The translations under genes and the position numbers were made by a program. Below are positions 33,843 through 39,116 of a stretch of DNA of 64,000 bases, in pieces (position 1 is the stretch's first letter; the number at the start of each line of letters is the position of its first letter). The stretch is from Komagataeibacter swingsii (GTDB lineage: Bacteria; Pseudomonadota; Alphaproteobacteria; Acetobacterales; Acetobacteraceae): positions 1-64,000 of the forward strand of contig NZ_NKUB01000010.1 of NCBI RefSeq assembly GCF_003207895.1, in the 5' to 3' direction. The notes below the pieces were generated by a model that saw nothing but the letters and a program-made list of their open reading frames with translations, was not told the origin of the DNA and made no database searches.

Positions 33843-33848
33843 ATGCGG

Positions 33849-34943
33849 ATGATGCCAGCCGGTCCTGATATGGCCGCCCCCCCGGTTGATGGTCCGCCCG
33901 CGGGCAGCCCGGAACTGGGGCAGTTCGCGTTACGGATACCAGGCATGCACCTGAACAAGCTGTTGCAGGTGCTGGAATCACGCGGGGTTTCCGTTACCCA
34001 TATCCTGGCCCGTTTCGGGCTTGACCGCTCCGGCCTGCGGCAGGGGGGATCGCATATCCTGTACGGGGATTATGTGCGCCTGCTGGACAGCATCCTGACG
34101 GAAGTCACGCTGCCGGGGCTGGGTTTTCTGGCCGGGCGGCATATCAATGCAGCCGATTTCGGGGTGGTGGGCTATGCCTGCATCAGTGCACCGACATGGC
34201 GGGAAGCCATAAGTCGCTTCATCCGGTACCAGGCCCTGCTGGGCTATGGCATCCGCATCCGGCAGAACCTGGTGGAAAATGCCAGCCATGCCGTGATCGG
34301 CGCGCACGTCCTGCCTGAACTGCCCGCGCGCACCCTGCTGTACCTGGTGGAAGAATGGCTGGGCAACTGGAGCGCATGGCTGGAAACCAGCGGGCTGGAA
34401 CTGGCGGAAATCTGCCTGGTGGTGCCACGACCGGATCATGCGGCGTTATACATGCGGTATTTTTCCTGTCCGGTACGGTTTTCATGCACGGAAAATGCAA
34501 TTCGCATCTGTCGCAGCCATCTGGGCAGCATGCCCGAAATGGCGAATGACATCGCGGCCAACATGATGGCGGATTACTGCGAAAACATGCTGGCGCGGAT
34601 CAACCACAGCCTGAGCATGGTCGAACGGGTCCGACAGAGCATAAGTGCGCAGTTCCGCACCCCGCCAAATGCCGCGCGCCCCACGCTGGAGGTCGTCGCC
34701 GCCGATCTGGGCATGGGCGCGCGGACCCTGCGCCGCATGCTGGCGCTGGAGGGCATGCGCTTTCAGGACCTGGTCAACGAACACATGGCCCGCCTGGCGC
34801 AGGCCATGCTGCGCGACAGTGACCGTTCCATCAAGGAAATCGGCTTTTCGCTTGGCTATACCGAAGTATCCGGCTTTCACCGCGCCTTCCGCTCATGGAC
34901 CGGCGTGACCCCCGGCGCCTATCGTGAGGGCCGGGACGGATAG
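33849..34943 (+). CDS. AraC-family transcriptional regulator (OruR type)
   Basis: About 364 residues. The N-terminal ligand-binding part (residues about 40-220, ARFGLDRSGLRQGGSHILYGDYVRLLD, then FGVVGYACISAPTWREAI) matches the Arabinose_bd type seen in OruR/ArgR-like regulators. The C-terminal double helix-turn-helix is clear: VVAADLGMGARTLRRML and RSIKEIGFSLGYTEVSGFHRAFRSWTGVTPGAYRE. ATG codons at 33843, 33849 and 33852 compete; the GGCAGGGG site at 33835-33842 fits the latter two better. Target genes are unknown; it may control the GhrA-like reductase downstream. Confidence 0.88.
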   Translation: MMPAGPDMAAPPVDGPPAGSPELGQFALRIPGMHLNKLLQVLESRGVSVTHILARFGLDRSGLRQGGSHILYGDYVRLLDSILTEVTLPGLGFLAGRHINAADFGVVGYACISAPTWREAISRFIRYQALLGYGIRIRQNLVENASHAVIGAHVLPELPARTLLYLVEEWLGNWSAWLETSGLELAEICLVVPRPDHAALYMRYFSCPVRFSCTENAIRICRSHLGSMPEMANDIAANMMADYCENMLARINHSLSMVERVRQSISAQFRTPPNAARPTLEVVAADLGMGARTLRRMLALEGMRFQDLVNEHMARLAQAMLRDSDRSIKEIGFSLGYTEVSGFHRAFRSWTGVTPGAYREGRDG

Positions 34944-35482: not shown

Positions 35483-36424
35483 ATGGCACGGCTTATTATC
35501 AGCGCGGATGGGGCCGATAACGTGGCGGGATGGCGCGCAGCCTTCCATCATGTCGCCCCGGATCTGGAAACCTGTTCGTGGTATGATCCAGATCTGGAAT
35601 TGCGGGCGGATGATTACGCGCTGGTCTGGACGCCGTCCTCCGCTGATCTGGCCCGCATGAAGGGATTGCGGGCCATCATCTGCACCGGGGCCGGGGTCAA
35701 CCATCTGCTTGATGATCCTGCTTTTCCCGCCCATGTCCCGCTGGTTCGCATGGGGGGGGACCAGACGGCGGCCCTGATGGCCGATTATGTCCTGTGGGCG
35801 GCGCTGGGACTGCTGCGGGACGCCCGCACATGGGCGCTGCAGCAGGCGGCGGAGGTCTGGCGTAACAACCGCGTGTCACGCACCTGCGCTGAAACGCGGG
35901 TGGGGGTCATGGGCATGGGGCATCTGGGCGCTTATGTGGCGCGTCACCTGCGCCATGTCGGTTTCGTGGTGTCAGGCTGGCGGCGTTCGGCGCGGGACGT
36001 GCCGGGTATCCGCGTCTTTGCCGGTGACGCCGCATTGCCCGATTTCCTGCGTGACGTGGATATTCTGGTCAATCTGCTGCCCAGCACGACGCAGACGCGC
36101 GGCATGATTGATTACGACCTGCTGAAGCAGTTGCCGCGCAAGGCGGGCCTGATTAACGTGGGGCGGGGCAACCATGTGGTGCAGGCCGATCTTGTCCGCG
36201 CGCTGGACGACGGGGTGCTGGGCGGCGCGGTGCTGGACGTGACCGTGCCCGAACCCCTGCCGGCGGGGGATCCGTTATGGCGTCATGAACGGATCACGGT
36301 TACGCCGCATGTGGCATCCGAAGCCTCGCGGGAGGCACAGGTGCGTTATGTCGTGGATGTCATTGGCCAGATGGAACGCAACGAACGTCCCGCGCTGCTG
36401 TGCGATCCCGGCCGCGGGTACTGA
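35483..36424 (+). CDS. 2-hydroxyacid dehydrogenase, glyoxylate/hydroxypyruvate reductase A-like
   Basis: NAD(P)-dependent D-2-hydroxyacid dehydrogenase of about 313 residues. It has VGVMGMGHLGAYVARHL for the cofactor, LVNLLPSTTQTRGMI, INVGRGNHVVQ with the catalytic Arg, DVTVPEPLPAGDPLW with Glu and TPHVASEA with His. These fit GhrA. ATG 35483 lies nine bases after AAGGGAG and is preferred over ATG 35474. It probably reduces glyoxylate or hydroxypyruvate in the cytoplasm. A riboswitch-led transcription unit follows on the same strand. Confidence 0.88.
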   Translation: MARLIISADGADNVAGWRAAFHHVAPDLETCSWYDPDLELRADDYALVWTPSSADLARMKGLRAIICTGAGVNHLLDDPAFPAHVPLVRMGGDQTAALMADYVLWAALGLLRDARTWALQQAAEVWRNNRVSRTCAETRVGVMGMGHLGAYVARHLRHVGFVVSGWRRSARDVPGIRVFAGDAALPDFLRDVDILVNLLPSTTQTRGMIDYDLLKQLPRKAGLINVGRGNHVVQADLVRALDDGVLGGAVLDVTVPEPLPAGDPLWRHERITVTPHVASEASREAQVRYVVDVIGQMERNERPALLCDPGRGY

Positions 36425-36564
36425 AACTATCACGCATCCGTTCGCGACGCGGCACCATCATGTGCCCGGTTGGTCGGGGTGGATGCGTGACCGCAGGCCG
36501 GACAGGGAAAGCGCAGGCGGTCGCGCCATCATGCTTGACCGTGGCCACGATCCGGGCTTTCAAG
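36425..36564. other. Leader region upstream of the fluoride riboswitch
   Basis: No gene is visible between the reductase stop and the riboswitch at about 36565. The promoter of the fluoride unit must lie here, but I cannot pick out a convincing -35/-10 pair. Confidence 0.4.
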
Positions 36565-36638
36565 GATGGACGGCAATGGACTCTGCCGGACCATGATGGT
36601 CGAACCGTCCCCTGCATGGGGGCTGATGATTCCTACCC
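36565..36638 (+). promoter_or_regulatory. Fluoride riboswitch (crcB motif)
   Basis: The 5' part GGCAATGGACTCTGCC (36572-36587) fits the crcB P1 half, with GGCA/TGCC pairing in place of GGCG/CGCC of the Thermotoga riboswitch. An optional hairpin GACC-ATGAT-GGTC follows, then AACCGTCCCC-TGCA-TGGGGG and the invariant 3' element GGCTGATGATTCCTAC (36621-36636). GGA of the first loop can pair with TCC of the last for the pseudoknot. It lies about 115 bases before a CLC-F type antiporter gene, the classic target, and is expected to raise expression when fluoride is bound. Confidence 0.82.
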
Positions 36639-36754
36639 AATGCCATTGCGGCAACAAGGGAGGAATCCGTGTAGGGTCATAGATATCATGTCCGCATGCA
36701 GGCCCGGGGCGTGGCCTGTTGTTCCATGAAAAAAGCCGGGTCTGGCGAATATCA

Positions 36755-38137
36755 ATGAATATTGACGTAATCATGCGCGATGGCTGCCGTGTGGCGGCCG
36801 TGTTGCTGAAATGGGCGTGTATCCTGGCCGGGCTGTCGGCATGTGTTGGCAGTGCGTGCGCGGTGTTCCTGTGGCTGCTGGATCAGGCGGCGGGGACGCG
36901 GCTGTCCCATCCATGGCTGCTCTATGGCCTGCCGGTGGCGGGCGTGGCGGTCGGCCTGCTCTATCACTGGTTTGGCCGCACGGCGGAGGGGGGCAATAAC
37001 CTGATCGTGGACCAGATTCACGAACCCGGCGGTGGCGTGCCCCTGCGCATGGCGCCACTGGTGCTGGTGGGGACGGTTGTCAGCCACCTGTTCGGCGCAT
37101 CGGTCGGGCGTGAGGGCACGGCCGTGCAGATGGGCGGCAGTATCGCCAGTGCGATCGGGCGGCTGTGCCGCCTGCGCGACCCGCATGAAATCCGCATCCT
37201 GCTGATATCCGGCATTGCCGCGGGCTTTGCCGCCGTATTCGGCACGCCGGTTGCGGGGGCTGTGTTCGGCATGGAGGTGTTGCGGGTAGGGCGTATTGAA
37301 TATGGCGCGCTGGTTCCCGTCATCCTTGCCGCCACGGTGGCGGACTGGGTCTGCCATGCATGGGGGATCGAGCATGTGCCCTATACCCTTGGCTTCCATG
37401 GTTATGCCGGGCGGGATGGGCGTTTTTTCCATGCCGACATCATCCTGCTGGCCAAGGTGGTGGTGGCGGGCGTGGCCTTTGGCCTGGCCAGCCTGCTGTT
37501 TGCGGAATCCGTGCACCGGGTTGCGGCGGTGTTGCGGCGGACCTGCCCCACGCCGTGGCTGCGCCCCGCCATTGGTGGGGCCGTGACCATTGCGCTGGTA
37601 TGGGTATGCGGGTCACGGGATTATCTGGGGCTGGGGATTGTCGCCCCGGAGGATGGGGGCGCGTCGATCCTCGATTTCTTCGGTCCGGCGCACTATCCGC
37701 TGGCATGGGCGTGGAAGCTGGTCTTTACCGTTGCGGTACTGGCGGCGGGCTTCAAGGGTGGGGAGGTTACGCCCCTGTTCTTTATCGGCGCCGGTCTGGG
37801 CAATGCGCTGTCCGGTGTCCTGCATGCGCCGGTGGACCTGCTGGCGGCGGTGGGATTCGTGGCCGTGTTCGCCGGTGCGGCCAATACGCCGCTGGCCTGT
37901 ACGCTTATGGCGGTTGAACTGTTTGGCGCGGCGGATATTGTCTATTTCGCTACGGGCTGTTTCGTGGCCTATGTCTGTTCGGGGCATTCAGGGATCTATC
38001 TGGCGCAGCGTATCGCGGTGCCCAAGCGGTACGCGGCCCGTACGCTTGCGGGCGTGACGCTGCGGCAGGCGCGTGCGGGATATCGGCCGGATCCGTCCAC
38101 CACATCCGCCCCATCGGGCGAAAAGGCATCACCATGA
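36755..38137 (+). CDS. CLC-F type fluoride/proton antiporter
   Basis: Membrane antiporter of the CLC family, about 460 residues with roughly 12 helices. Instead of the chloride-type GSGIP it has GGNNLIVDQIHEP; the gating motif is GREGTAVQMGGS rather than GREGP; the later part reads GFKGGEVTPLFFIGAG and GAANTPLACTLMAVELFG. This combination is that of the fluoride-exporting CLC-F clade (Asn type). The fluoride riboswitch upstream supports this strongly. ATG 36755 fits the N-terminus; a TTG at 36719 is also in frame. Its stop overlaps the next start (ATGA). Confidence 0.9.
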   Translation: MNIDVIMRDGCRVAAVLLKWACILAGLSACVGSACAVFLWLLDQAAGTRLSHPWLLYGLPVAGVAVGLLYHWFGRTAEGGNNLIVDQIHEPGGGVPLRMAPLVLVGTVVSHLFGASVGREGTAVQMGGSIASAIGRLCRLRDPHEIRILLISGIAAGFAAVFGTPVAGAVFGMEVLRVGRIEYGALVPVILAATVADWVCHAWGIEHVPYTLGFHGYAGRDGRFFHADIILLAKVVVAGVAFGLASLLFAESVHRVAAVLRRTCPTPWLRPAIGGAVTIALVWVCGSRDYLGLGIVAPEDGGASILDFFGPAHYPLAWAWKLVFTVAVLAAGFKGGEVTPLFFIGAGLGNALSGVLHAPVDLLAAVGFVAVFAGAANTPLACTLMAVELFGAADIVYFATGCFVAYVCSGHSGIYLAQRIAVPKRYAARTLAGVTLRQARAGYRPDPSTTSAPSGEKASP

Positions 38138-38622
38138 CCCTGTCCCACGCAACAATCACATCGGGTCGCATGGGCCGCGCCTTGGCCATGGGCGGCCTGT
38201 GGCTGGCGATGCTGTGCATCGGGCCGGTTCCTGGCGCATGGGCGACGGAAGCCGCGCATCCTTCGCCTGCGGAACAGCGGATCATGACGCAGCGCATCAC
38301 AGCGCTGCCCGCGCGGGAGCGCCCCGGTGTCATGGGGCAGGACATGGCATGGCGGATGACCACCTTCCTGTGCCAGGACGCAGCCCGTTTGGTGCTGGTG
38401 CGCAGGGGCGCGCTGCCACACCGCTTCTTCCTGCAGGATGATCGCCCCGCCAGTCAGGTCGTGGTCAGTCCGGCCCTGATAGAAGGGCGCGGCCAGTACA
38501 TGCCGGCCACAGGCCCCATGCGCTGGGTGGCGTTTGCATGGGCCTGCCACCTTGACCCCGCGACCGGCCATGTCGTGCATTTTGACGTAAATCCCGCGAC
38601 ACGGCAGGGCGACGGGCCATGA
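38134..38622 (+). CDS. Secreted protein of unknown function, coupled to the fluoride antiporter
   Basis: Protein of 162 residues with a signal peptide (MGGLWLAMLCIGPVPGAWA, cleavage before TEAAH). The mature part has only two cysteines (TTFLCQDAA and FAWACHLDP) and no family I recognise. It starts on the antiporter stop codon and ends on the start of the next gene, so all three are read together and probably respond to the fluoride riboswitch. A direct role in fluoride tolerance is not shown. Confidence 0.6.
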   Translation: MTLSHATITSGRMGRALAMGGLWLAMLCIGPVPGAWATEAAHPSPAEQRIMTQRITALPARERPGVMGQDMAWRMTTFLCQDAARLVLVRRGALPHRFFLQDDRPASQVVVSPALIEGRGQYMPATGPMRWVAFAWACHLDPATGHVVHFDVNPATRQGDGP

Positions 38623-39116
38623 TGCGGTGGCTGGCGGCAGGTATCAGCCTCGGCCTGTCCTGCCTTCCGGCCTGTGGTCATGCCCGTGTGCCGCGGGATT
38701 GCGCGCCCCGTCATATGGCCATGGTGCTGGATGATGGACAGGGTGCGTTTGATGGCATGATGCACGGCGGAATGTGGCTTGTGTTGCGCAATACGGGTCC
38801 GGGGGCCTGTTCGCTGGCTTTATCCGGCCCGCTGTCATTCGAGGATGCGCATCATCACGCCATCCCGGTCCAGTGGCGGCGGACCGTGGCCGCGCCAGGC
38901 GGCGTACTGTATCCGGGCGGGCAGGTCAGGACAGCCCTGCGCTGGGTGTCGGGCAATGCGTTCGATCCGGGTTACTGCATCACCCCGGCAACATTGGTGC
39001 TGCCATTGCGCAAGGGCGCGCTGCGACAGCCTTTTGGTCGCAGCCTGTGCGCCCCGTCCGGCGCGCCGCCCACGCTGGAACAGCAGCCGTGGCAGGCAGG
39101 GCCAGCACGGCAATAG
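38619..39116 (+). CDS. Secreted DUF4232-like protein
   Basis: Protein of 165 residues with a signal peptide (GISLGLSCLPACGHARV; the CG after LPA gives a possible lipobox). The mature part has the DUF4232-like pattern of a Met/Gly-rich GAFDGMMHGGMWLVLRNTGPGACSL, a central PGGQVRTALRWVSG and a later DPGYCITPATLVLPL with a conserved Cys pair. Likely a periplasmic or surface beta-sandwich protein. It overlaps the upstream stop (ATGATG) and is followed by MITE copy D. Confidence 0.6.
   Translation: MMRWLAAGISLGLSCLPACGHARVPRDCAPRHMAMVLDDGQGAFDGMMHGGMWLVLRNTGPGACSLALSGPLSFEDAHHHAIPVQWRRTVAAPGGVLYPGGQVRTALRWVSGNAFDPGYCITPATLVLPLRKGALRQPFGRSLCAPSGAPPTLEQQPWQAGPARQ

Follow-up and report, generated by a model that had tools for sequence, protein, structure and literature searches.

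Introduction

The fluoride riboswitches (Rfam family RF01734) of Bacillus cereus and Thermotoga petrophila consist of two helices, P1 and P2, and a pseudoknot between the P1 loop and the 3' tail. They carry the core letters AUG, CUGAUG and CCUAC, and their 3' strand is common to aptamer and expression platform. According to the available part of PMC11077080, in B. cereus the wobble U17-G42 occupies position 1 of the pseudoknot, which has six pairs, and the strength of a single pseudoknot pair, above all of this wobble, decides switching under the conditions used there. Fluoride riboswitches upstream of CLC-F genes are established as well: the accessible text of PMC11139923 puts about 30% of CLC-F genes under riboswitches, describes the two fluoride exporters as usually mutually exclusive, and gives as CLC-F signatures GNNLI or GMGLI (both types are listed), GREGT/V and GEVTP. 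Since such pairs of riboswitch and CLC-F gene are established, the sensor, the exporter and their logic are already known. The fluoride operon of Enterobacter cloacae FRM, as far as described in the available part of PMC5533749, has its riboswitch over exporter and Usp genes, like the CrcB-type relatives reported below.

Here we analyse a leader and its downstream genes in a window of 64,000 nucleotides (the whole stretch of DNA studied) from Komagataeibacter swingsii. The leader shares with the riboswitches of B. cereus and T. petrophila all the elements named above. Unlike them, it has a pyrimidine mismatch at pseudoknot position 3, a hairpin after P1 and an A-U fourth P1 pair, and its competing stem holds a Shine-Dalgarno-like element, with no recognisable terminator. 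In contrast to the six-gene CrcB operon of E. cloacae FRM (PMC5533749, available part), the window combines CLC-F with two small, probably exported proteins. Sequence comparison indicates that the leader is very probably a fluoride-sensing ON riboswitch and the gene a CLC-F type F-/H+ antiporter exporting fluoride. What is added here is a subtype with a conserved mismatch and an accessory hairpin, found in front of both families of exporters, and an apparent exchange of the cassette.

Results and discussion

Identification of the aptamer and the transporter

A covariance search with RF01734 gave a match at 36563-36642 on the forward strand, at 40.1 bits against a gathering score of 34 (E 1.2e-7 in the 64 kb window, full model 1-64 covered); a scan of the 3.73 Mb genome at E <= 0.001 returned this aptamer as the single match. 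The original prediction had claimed a crcB-type RNA from GGCAATGGACTCTGCC and GGCTGATGATTCCTAC; both motifs are present, at 36572-36587 and 36621-36636, and the covariance score above the curated threshold agrees with it. A subtype model built from 31 relatives, including the window, scores the aptamer at 74.1 bits and the next place in the window at 14.8 bits. The features of the leader and the transporter gene are as follows.

36535..36563, + strand: promoter-like TTGACC-N17-TTTCAA (by eye, weak)
36563..36642, + strand: probable fluoride riboswitch aptamer (RF01734; 40.1 bits, 74.1 bits with the subtype model)
36572..36587, + strand: P1 hairpin GGCA/TGCC, fourth pair A36575-T36584 (100% of cells paired in 29 sequences)
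36578..36583, + strand: pseudoknot 5' strand GGACTC, C36581 opposite T36630 (alignment)
36588..36602, + strand: inserted hairpin after P1 (P1b), stem 36589-36593/36597-36601 (fold -5.7 kcal/mol, covariation)
36607..36623, + strand: P2 hairpin (fold, alignment)
36628..36633, + strand: pseudoknot 3' strand GATTCC, which is also the 5' strand of the competing stem P4 (alignment)
36755..38137, + strand: putative CLC-F type F-/H+ antiporter gene, 460 aa from the ATG at 36755 (motifs, PDB match, tree)

Both helices, P1 and P2, and the core letters AUG, AACCG, CUGAUG and CCUAC are present, as is the pseudoknot between P1 loop and 3' tail, with 5/6 positions paired in the window. An uninterrupted six-pair pseudoknot, which is usual in the studied examples and whose pairs are absent from the structure line of the Rfam model, was not found: position 3 is C x U, and because of this mismatch we class the RNA as a variant. 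The original prediction had singled out an A in place of G in P1, compensated by a T. The exchange is real (36575-36584) but typical of the subtype, with A-U in 80/83 and G-C in 3/83 aptamers, and the larger departures, the mismatch 36581 x 36630 and the hairpin 36588-36602, had been overlooked. The promoter-like element would place the transcription start at about 36569-36571, the 5' edge of the aptamer. By eye, some relatives' leaders have similar boxes; a consensus promoter scan found no site reaching threshold.

The open reading frame 36755-38137 encodes a voltage-CLC protein (PF00654, E 4e-68) that carries all three CLC-F signatures, GNNLI, GREGT and GEVTP. GREGT and GGNN, predicted to stand in place of the chloride-type GREGP and GSGIP, are both found. 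The same genome encodes three more CLC proteins with the chloride-type set GSGIP, GREGP and GxFxP, and a fourth (L006) with GREVAP. The best PDB matches are three CLC-F antiporter entries (6D0J, E 1.2e-53), with ClcA next at 1e-4; the one chloride-type paralogue that was compared with PDB prefers Sll0855 and ClcA over 6D0J. The window protein shares GREG and GEVTP, including the additional glutamate and threonine, with the CLC-F protein of Enterococcus casseliflavus (6D0J; match over residues 42-421 of the window protein). It differs in having GNN and not GMN in the selectivity segment.

A maximum-likelihood tree of 40 rows separates 36 (the window protein, its riboswitch-linked relatives and 6D0J) from 4 (the three own chloride-type CLCs and Sll0855) with support 100/100, and groups the window protein with Komagataeibacter sequences of up to 93% identity. 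In this tree 6D0J sits on a very long branch and its place is unsure, and the bootstrap is not settled; the signatures and E-values carry much of the argument. When the window protein alone was forced to the chloride side, the AU test did not reject the placement (p 0.352), which we attribute to the long outgroup branches. With the caveats of this p value and the long 6D0J branch, the tree sets the protein apart from the chloride CLCs, and on sequence grounds it is closer to CLC-F. Both lines of the original prediction, the RNA (RF01734 over threshold) and the protein (CLC-F motifs and tree), thus point to fluoride export.

A mismatched pseudoknot accompanied by an extra hairpin

The pseudoknot of the window reads C-G, U-A, C x U, A-U, G-C and G-C at positions 1-6. 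Relatives of the CLC gene were fetched with flanking DNA (79 loci), and position 3 is mismatched in 77/77 of the CLC-linked aptamers recognised there, a count less prone to selection than the others in that the pattern let the missing pair fall anywhere. A pattern survey returned 83 distinct aptamers with the position-3 mismatch, 82 of them pyrimidine-pyrimidine (U x C 41, U x U 25, C x U 10, C x C 6; the remaining one is A x C), and 84 distinct aptamers with a standard pair at this position; the two groups stem from pattern matches requiring most P1 and pseudoknot pairs, in one survey also 3'-strand patterns, and the survey loci were fetched partly for length. Sixteen survey matches that had dropped out of the pattern or called for a check were read by eye: L203 is mismatched at position 3 and 15 are standard there, some of these being mismatched at position 2 or 4.

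In the alignments of the mismatch group (29 and 31 sequences) the remaining five pseudoknot positions are always paired; the values of 0/29 and 0/31 paired at position 3 are not independent tests, because the group is defined by the mismatch. For relatives with a 9-nt loop the alignment omits one U, and the other register gives U-G at position 1. Position 1 is C-G in 59/83 mismatch aptamers, compared with 26/84 of those paired at position 3. In 31 diverse relatives, drawn from aptamers keeping most pairs, P1, the core letters and the five other pseudoknot positions show little or no variation.

A hairpin after P1 is present in 83/83 distinct mismatch aptamers, each insert folding with at least 3 pairs. 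Counted by rows (duplicates included), inserts of at least 11 nt after P1 occur in 107/107 mismatch rows and in 10/89 other rows. A first count (84/84 against 0/34, the window copy entering thrice) had suggested that insert and mismatch are inseparable. This idea was dropped in view of ten aptamers that combine an insert of at least 11 nt with pairing at position 3 (nine of the ten lie outside the taxonomic class), with more seen by eye; hence mismatch implies insert, and the reverse is untrue in these data. In 29 Acetobacteraceae sequences, 95.2% of the P1b cells are paired and both-side changes occur in 4/5 pairs; all aptamer helices together show 51 both-side cells versus 17.8 in shuffles. 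The P1b and P2 helices covary.

The predicted pseudoknot energy is -2.1 kcal/mol in the window, compared with a mean of -6.9 for the 84 distinct aptamers paired at position 3 (ranges -2.8 to -0.5 in the mismatch group and -8.7 to -4.5 kcal/mol in the others), a contrast that partly follows from how the groups are defined. Rfam scores of the CLC-linked copies lie near threshold (34.4-49.2 bits), and the dedicated subtype model scores well where Rfam stays there. The available text passages of PMC11077080, PMC13273304 and PMC2864571 do not mention a mismatch-and-hairpin subtype, and our literature searches, at the level of such passages, returned no paper on one.

As a tentative proposal, on balance somewhat doubtful in its entirety, the RNA may represent a separate, undescribed alphaproteobacterial subtype in which a pseudoknot broken at position 3 by a pyrimidine-pyrimidine pair, at a cost of about 5 kcal/mol, is rescued by the hairpin and tunes the fluoride threshold of a translational switch serving either of two unrelated exporters that substitute for one another inside a single genus. 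If this is true, the tuned threshold would let the competing stem with the ribosome-binding site win easily without fluoride. In nature the subtype offers an experiment on how fluoride is retained, provided that it is, by an aptamer whose pseudoknot is much weaker; the pair lost differs from the position 1 studied in PMC11077080.

Expression platform and proposed mechanism

The 3' strand of the aptamer, GATTCCTACCC, is complementary to GGGAGGAATC at 36658-36667, and the two are predicted to form a stem, P4, over a small hairpin. The features of this part of the leader are as follows.

36628..36667, + strand: candidate competing stem P4, 36628-36638/36658-36667, A36635 bulged, cap hairpin 36642-36652 (fold, covariation)
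36658..36664, + strand: Shine-Dalgarno-like GGGAGGA within the P4 3' strand (by eye)
36669..36674, + strand: GTG-TAG start-stop, 5 nt downstream of GGAGG (GTGTAG/GTGTAA in 12/12 CLC loci of the genus)
36688..36729, + strand: short open reading frame of 13 codons over hairpin 36699-36718 (frame and length vary within the genus)

The P4 region (36625-36675) has a fold z of -3.45. Its main stem is paired in 95.2% of cells (29 sequences), with 5/10 main pairs invariant. Covariation is modest: on two of five measures, 120 and 180 of 500 shuffles do as well, and two slid controls equal or surpass the proposed register on single measures (-1 with 10 both-side cells versus 9; +1 with a score of 0.166 versus 0.148). 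The clearest change, U-A to C-G or U-G, falls in the column that is also pseudoknot position 3.

Without fluoride, GATTCCTACCC would pair with GGGAGGAATC and hide the Shine-Dalgarno-like element in P4. Once Mg-fluoride is bound, the pseudoknot would retain the 3' strand, P4 would be blocked and the ribosome-binding region set free. We infer fluoride as the ligand of the subtype, the ON direction, P4 as competitor, translational output and F-/H+ exchange. Since the 3' aptamer strand can pair with the Shine-Dalgarno-like strand, a translational ON switch is likely; the gap before the CLC start remains outside this model in the genus of the window. By eye, many Rhizobiales leaders show AAGGAGTAGAGTC followed by GTG or ATG at ordinary spacing to the CLC start, and in Acetobacter-type leaders the ATG lies 15 nt downstream of GGAGG. 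In the window 91 nt separate GGAGG from the CLC start (90-92 nt in 12 loci of the genus), with about 75 nt inserted that contain a hairpin and short open reading frames of varying frame.

Three further elements of the leader were considered and set aside. A leader peptide at 36688-36729 coupled to CLC translation is not conserved as a peptide across the 12 genus loci: the reading frame has 7, 12, 13 or 22 codons or in one case runs into the CLC frame, and it stands in varying frame to CLC. The hairpin 36699-36718 as a terminator folds no better than shuffles and lacks a terminator consensus. A second anti-aptamer helix, P5 (36579-36586/36671-36678), is present in the minimum-energy fold and pairs well in some Acetobacteraceae; it has 72% of cells paired and no measure above shuffles (29 sequences). 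As a separate observation by eye, the leader of Novacetimonas hansenii (L023) has a reading frame of about 34 codons from an ATG close behind the P4 strand; its stop codon and the first codon of the matched CLC frame share the letters ATGA.

Apparent cassette and exporter exchange in the genus

Two small genes follow CLC-F in the window.

38134..38622, + strand: 162 aa protein with a signal-peptide-like start (by eye), its start overlapping the CLC stop (ATGA)
38619..39116, + strand: 165 aa DUF4232 protein with lipobox-like LPAC (by eye), its start overlapping the previous stop

A family search with the 162 aa protein found no family; its gene accompanies CLC in all loci of the genus that were examined (21 locus records, with some species represented more than once). 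The DUF4232 gene and CLC-F share one set of 12 out of 19 genus genomes, and the DUF4232 gene is found in 0/7 others. Across these 19 genomes, CLC-F (E <= 1e-60) is found in 12 and CrcB/Fluc in 8, both in one (G379) and neither in none. The overlap is the least possible, with p 1.6e-4 if the genomes were independent, which their kinship violates. In G379 a second CLC-F gene, 65-68% identical, lies behind a subtype aptamer about 1.4 kb before CrcB (L200, L220 and L221; G379:C34:7389-10459); two overlapping frames match, and it looks frame-shifted.

All of the best CLC-F loci of the genus (12/12) have a subtype aptamer, at 60.2-75.9 bits. In three CrcB-only genomes (G303, G281, G367) a subtype aptamer of 67.7-69.6 bits is followed by a Usp-like gene and then CrcB; the Usp family PF00582 was confirmed in the two of these that were tested. 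No subtype aptamer was found around CrcB in G340, G184 and G060, and G791 has two weaker matches near CrcB (39.8 and 27.5 bits), one with an ordinary paired pseudoknot. The cassette of the window is flanked by a dehydrogenase gene and a PEP-hydrolase-like gene. Three CLC-less genomes (G281, G060, G184) have the dehydrogenase neighbour. In G281 (L277, 2439-2610) the two flanking genes lie about 170 bases apart without the cassette; in G060 and G184 there is no PEP-hydrolase-like gene within the flank examined. Co-occurrence and the empty site together suggest that riboswitch, CLC-F and the two small genes come and go together, and from these comparisons they seem to be exchanged as one cassette. 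Elsewhere in the window, a glycosyl hydrolase family 5 cellulase gene (PF00150, 32235-33317) adjoins that of an AraC-type regulator (33843-34943).

Alternative explanations

At the level of sequence, the reading as a translational fluoride switch in front of a fluoride exporter is backed by the aptamer with its conserved core, by covariation in P1b and P2, by the CLC-F signatures and by distributions of CLC-F and Fluc that complement each other; counting against it are the far start codon in the genus, the share of only about 30% of CLC-F genes that riboswitches control (PMC11139923), the weak predicted pseudoknot, the modest covariation of P4 and the four CrcB genomes without a subtype aptamer. 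The strongest competitor keeps the same sensor and exporter and changes the output: transcription would end, intrinsically at 36699-36718 or through Rho, unless fluoride is bound. Other fluoride riboswitches do overlap intrinsic terminators, according to the available parts of PMC11077080 and PMC2864571. By eye, in 12/12 leaders of the genus the interval from the P4 strand to the CLC start includes a stretch able to form a hairpin, often with a few T's after it, and the distance from GGAGG to CLC is near-constant (90-92 nt) despite the varying frame, and too long for simple occlusion. Yet a search for an intrinsic terminator, a G+C-rich hairpin with a T run, found no such site in 36400-36850, the stretch 36680-36725 folds at shuffle level (z -0.27), and in many relatives outside the genus CLC begins shortly after the P4 strand (by eye). 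We consider transcriptional output unlikely, if still a serious contender to the translational switch.

Two other explanations would remove either the sensor or the exporter. The RNA could be a relative of the fluoride riboswitch that is decaying or has been put to another use and has lost fluoride sensing; its mismatch would then reflect this decay or a different ligand. Such a reading would suit the pseudoknot energy of -2.1 kcal/mol, against the mean of -6.9 in the 84 paired aptamers, and the near-threshold Rfam scores of the CLC-linked copies (34.4-49.2 bits). It is hard to reconcile with the near-invariance of the other five pseudoknot positions, P1 and core in the 31 relatives, which were chosen for kept pairs, and with downstream genes that include fluoride exporters of two unrelated families; we think it quite improbable. 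That the transporter is a chloride/proton exchanger standing behind the RNA by chance is more improbable still. The Pfam name is 'Voltage gated chloride channel', the ClcA- and ClcB-type models of NCBIfam match, all far below their cut-offs, and the AU test with its long outgroup allows a place on the chloride side (p 0.352). Against these stand the presence of all three CLC-F signatures, a PDB match to CLC-F whose E-value lies about 49 orders of magnitude below that for ClcA, the position of the genome's own chloride-type paralogues across a 100/100 branch, and the alternation with Fluc within the genus.

Distribution of the subtype

The aptamer lies directly upstream of CLC in 78 of the 79 related loci, 77 being recognised by pattern and one (L071) by eye, with 66.6 bits in the subtype model; in L029, a metagenome-assembled fragment, neither Rfam nor the subtype model found an aptamer. 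RF01734 reached the gathering score in 30 of the 31 loci, a subset of the 79, that were searched with Rfam. Larger scans used stricter filters and the subtype model, which was trained on relatives of the window and has scores favouring those. Among 385 genomes drawn from the taxonomic class, three reach at least 64 bits (G000, G424, G828), all with the mismatch, followed by a match of 43.8 bits. In a scan of 398 genomes of the phylum, the highest-scoring match outside the class lies in G725, with 54.1 bits and position 3 paired (L152). In G066 (Acetobacteraceae) the mismatch occurs with a long insert at 34.9 bits. Carriers of the subtype include Komagataeibacter, Gluconobacter, Acetobacter, Rhizobium and Agrobacterium, as well as Methylobacterium, Labrys, Nitrospirillum and Sphingomonas, and in further Acetobacteraceae Usp-like genes lie downstream of the subtype aptamer.

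Four loci from other Pseudomonadota (L145, L146, L147, L166) resemble the window in having a fluoride riboswitch with a CLC-F gene downstream, and two of them, L147 and L166, also have an insert after P1 (13 and 39 nt). Unlike the window, all four have GGCAT/ATGCC and a paired position 3, L166 having G x G at position 1.

Several Acetobacteraceae genomes contain divergent fluoride aptamers in pairs, with about 100-250 bases between the two (e.g. G169:C4:472-775 and G022:C2:5570-5873). In L187 and L192 an aptamer of the mismatch subtype faces an ordinary one, which by eye precedes an enolase-like gene. Two genomes, G094 and G183, have 12 fluoride aptamer matches each.
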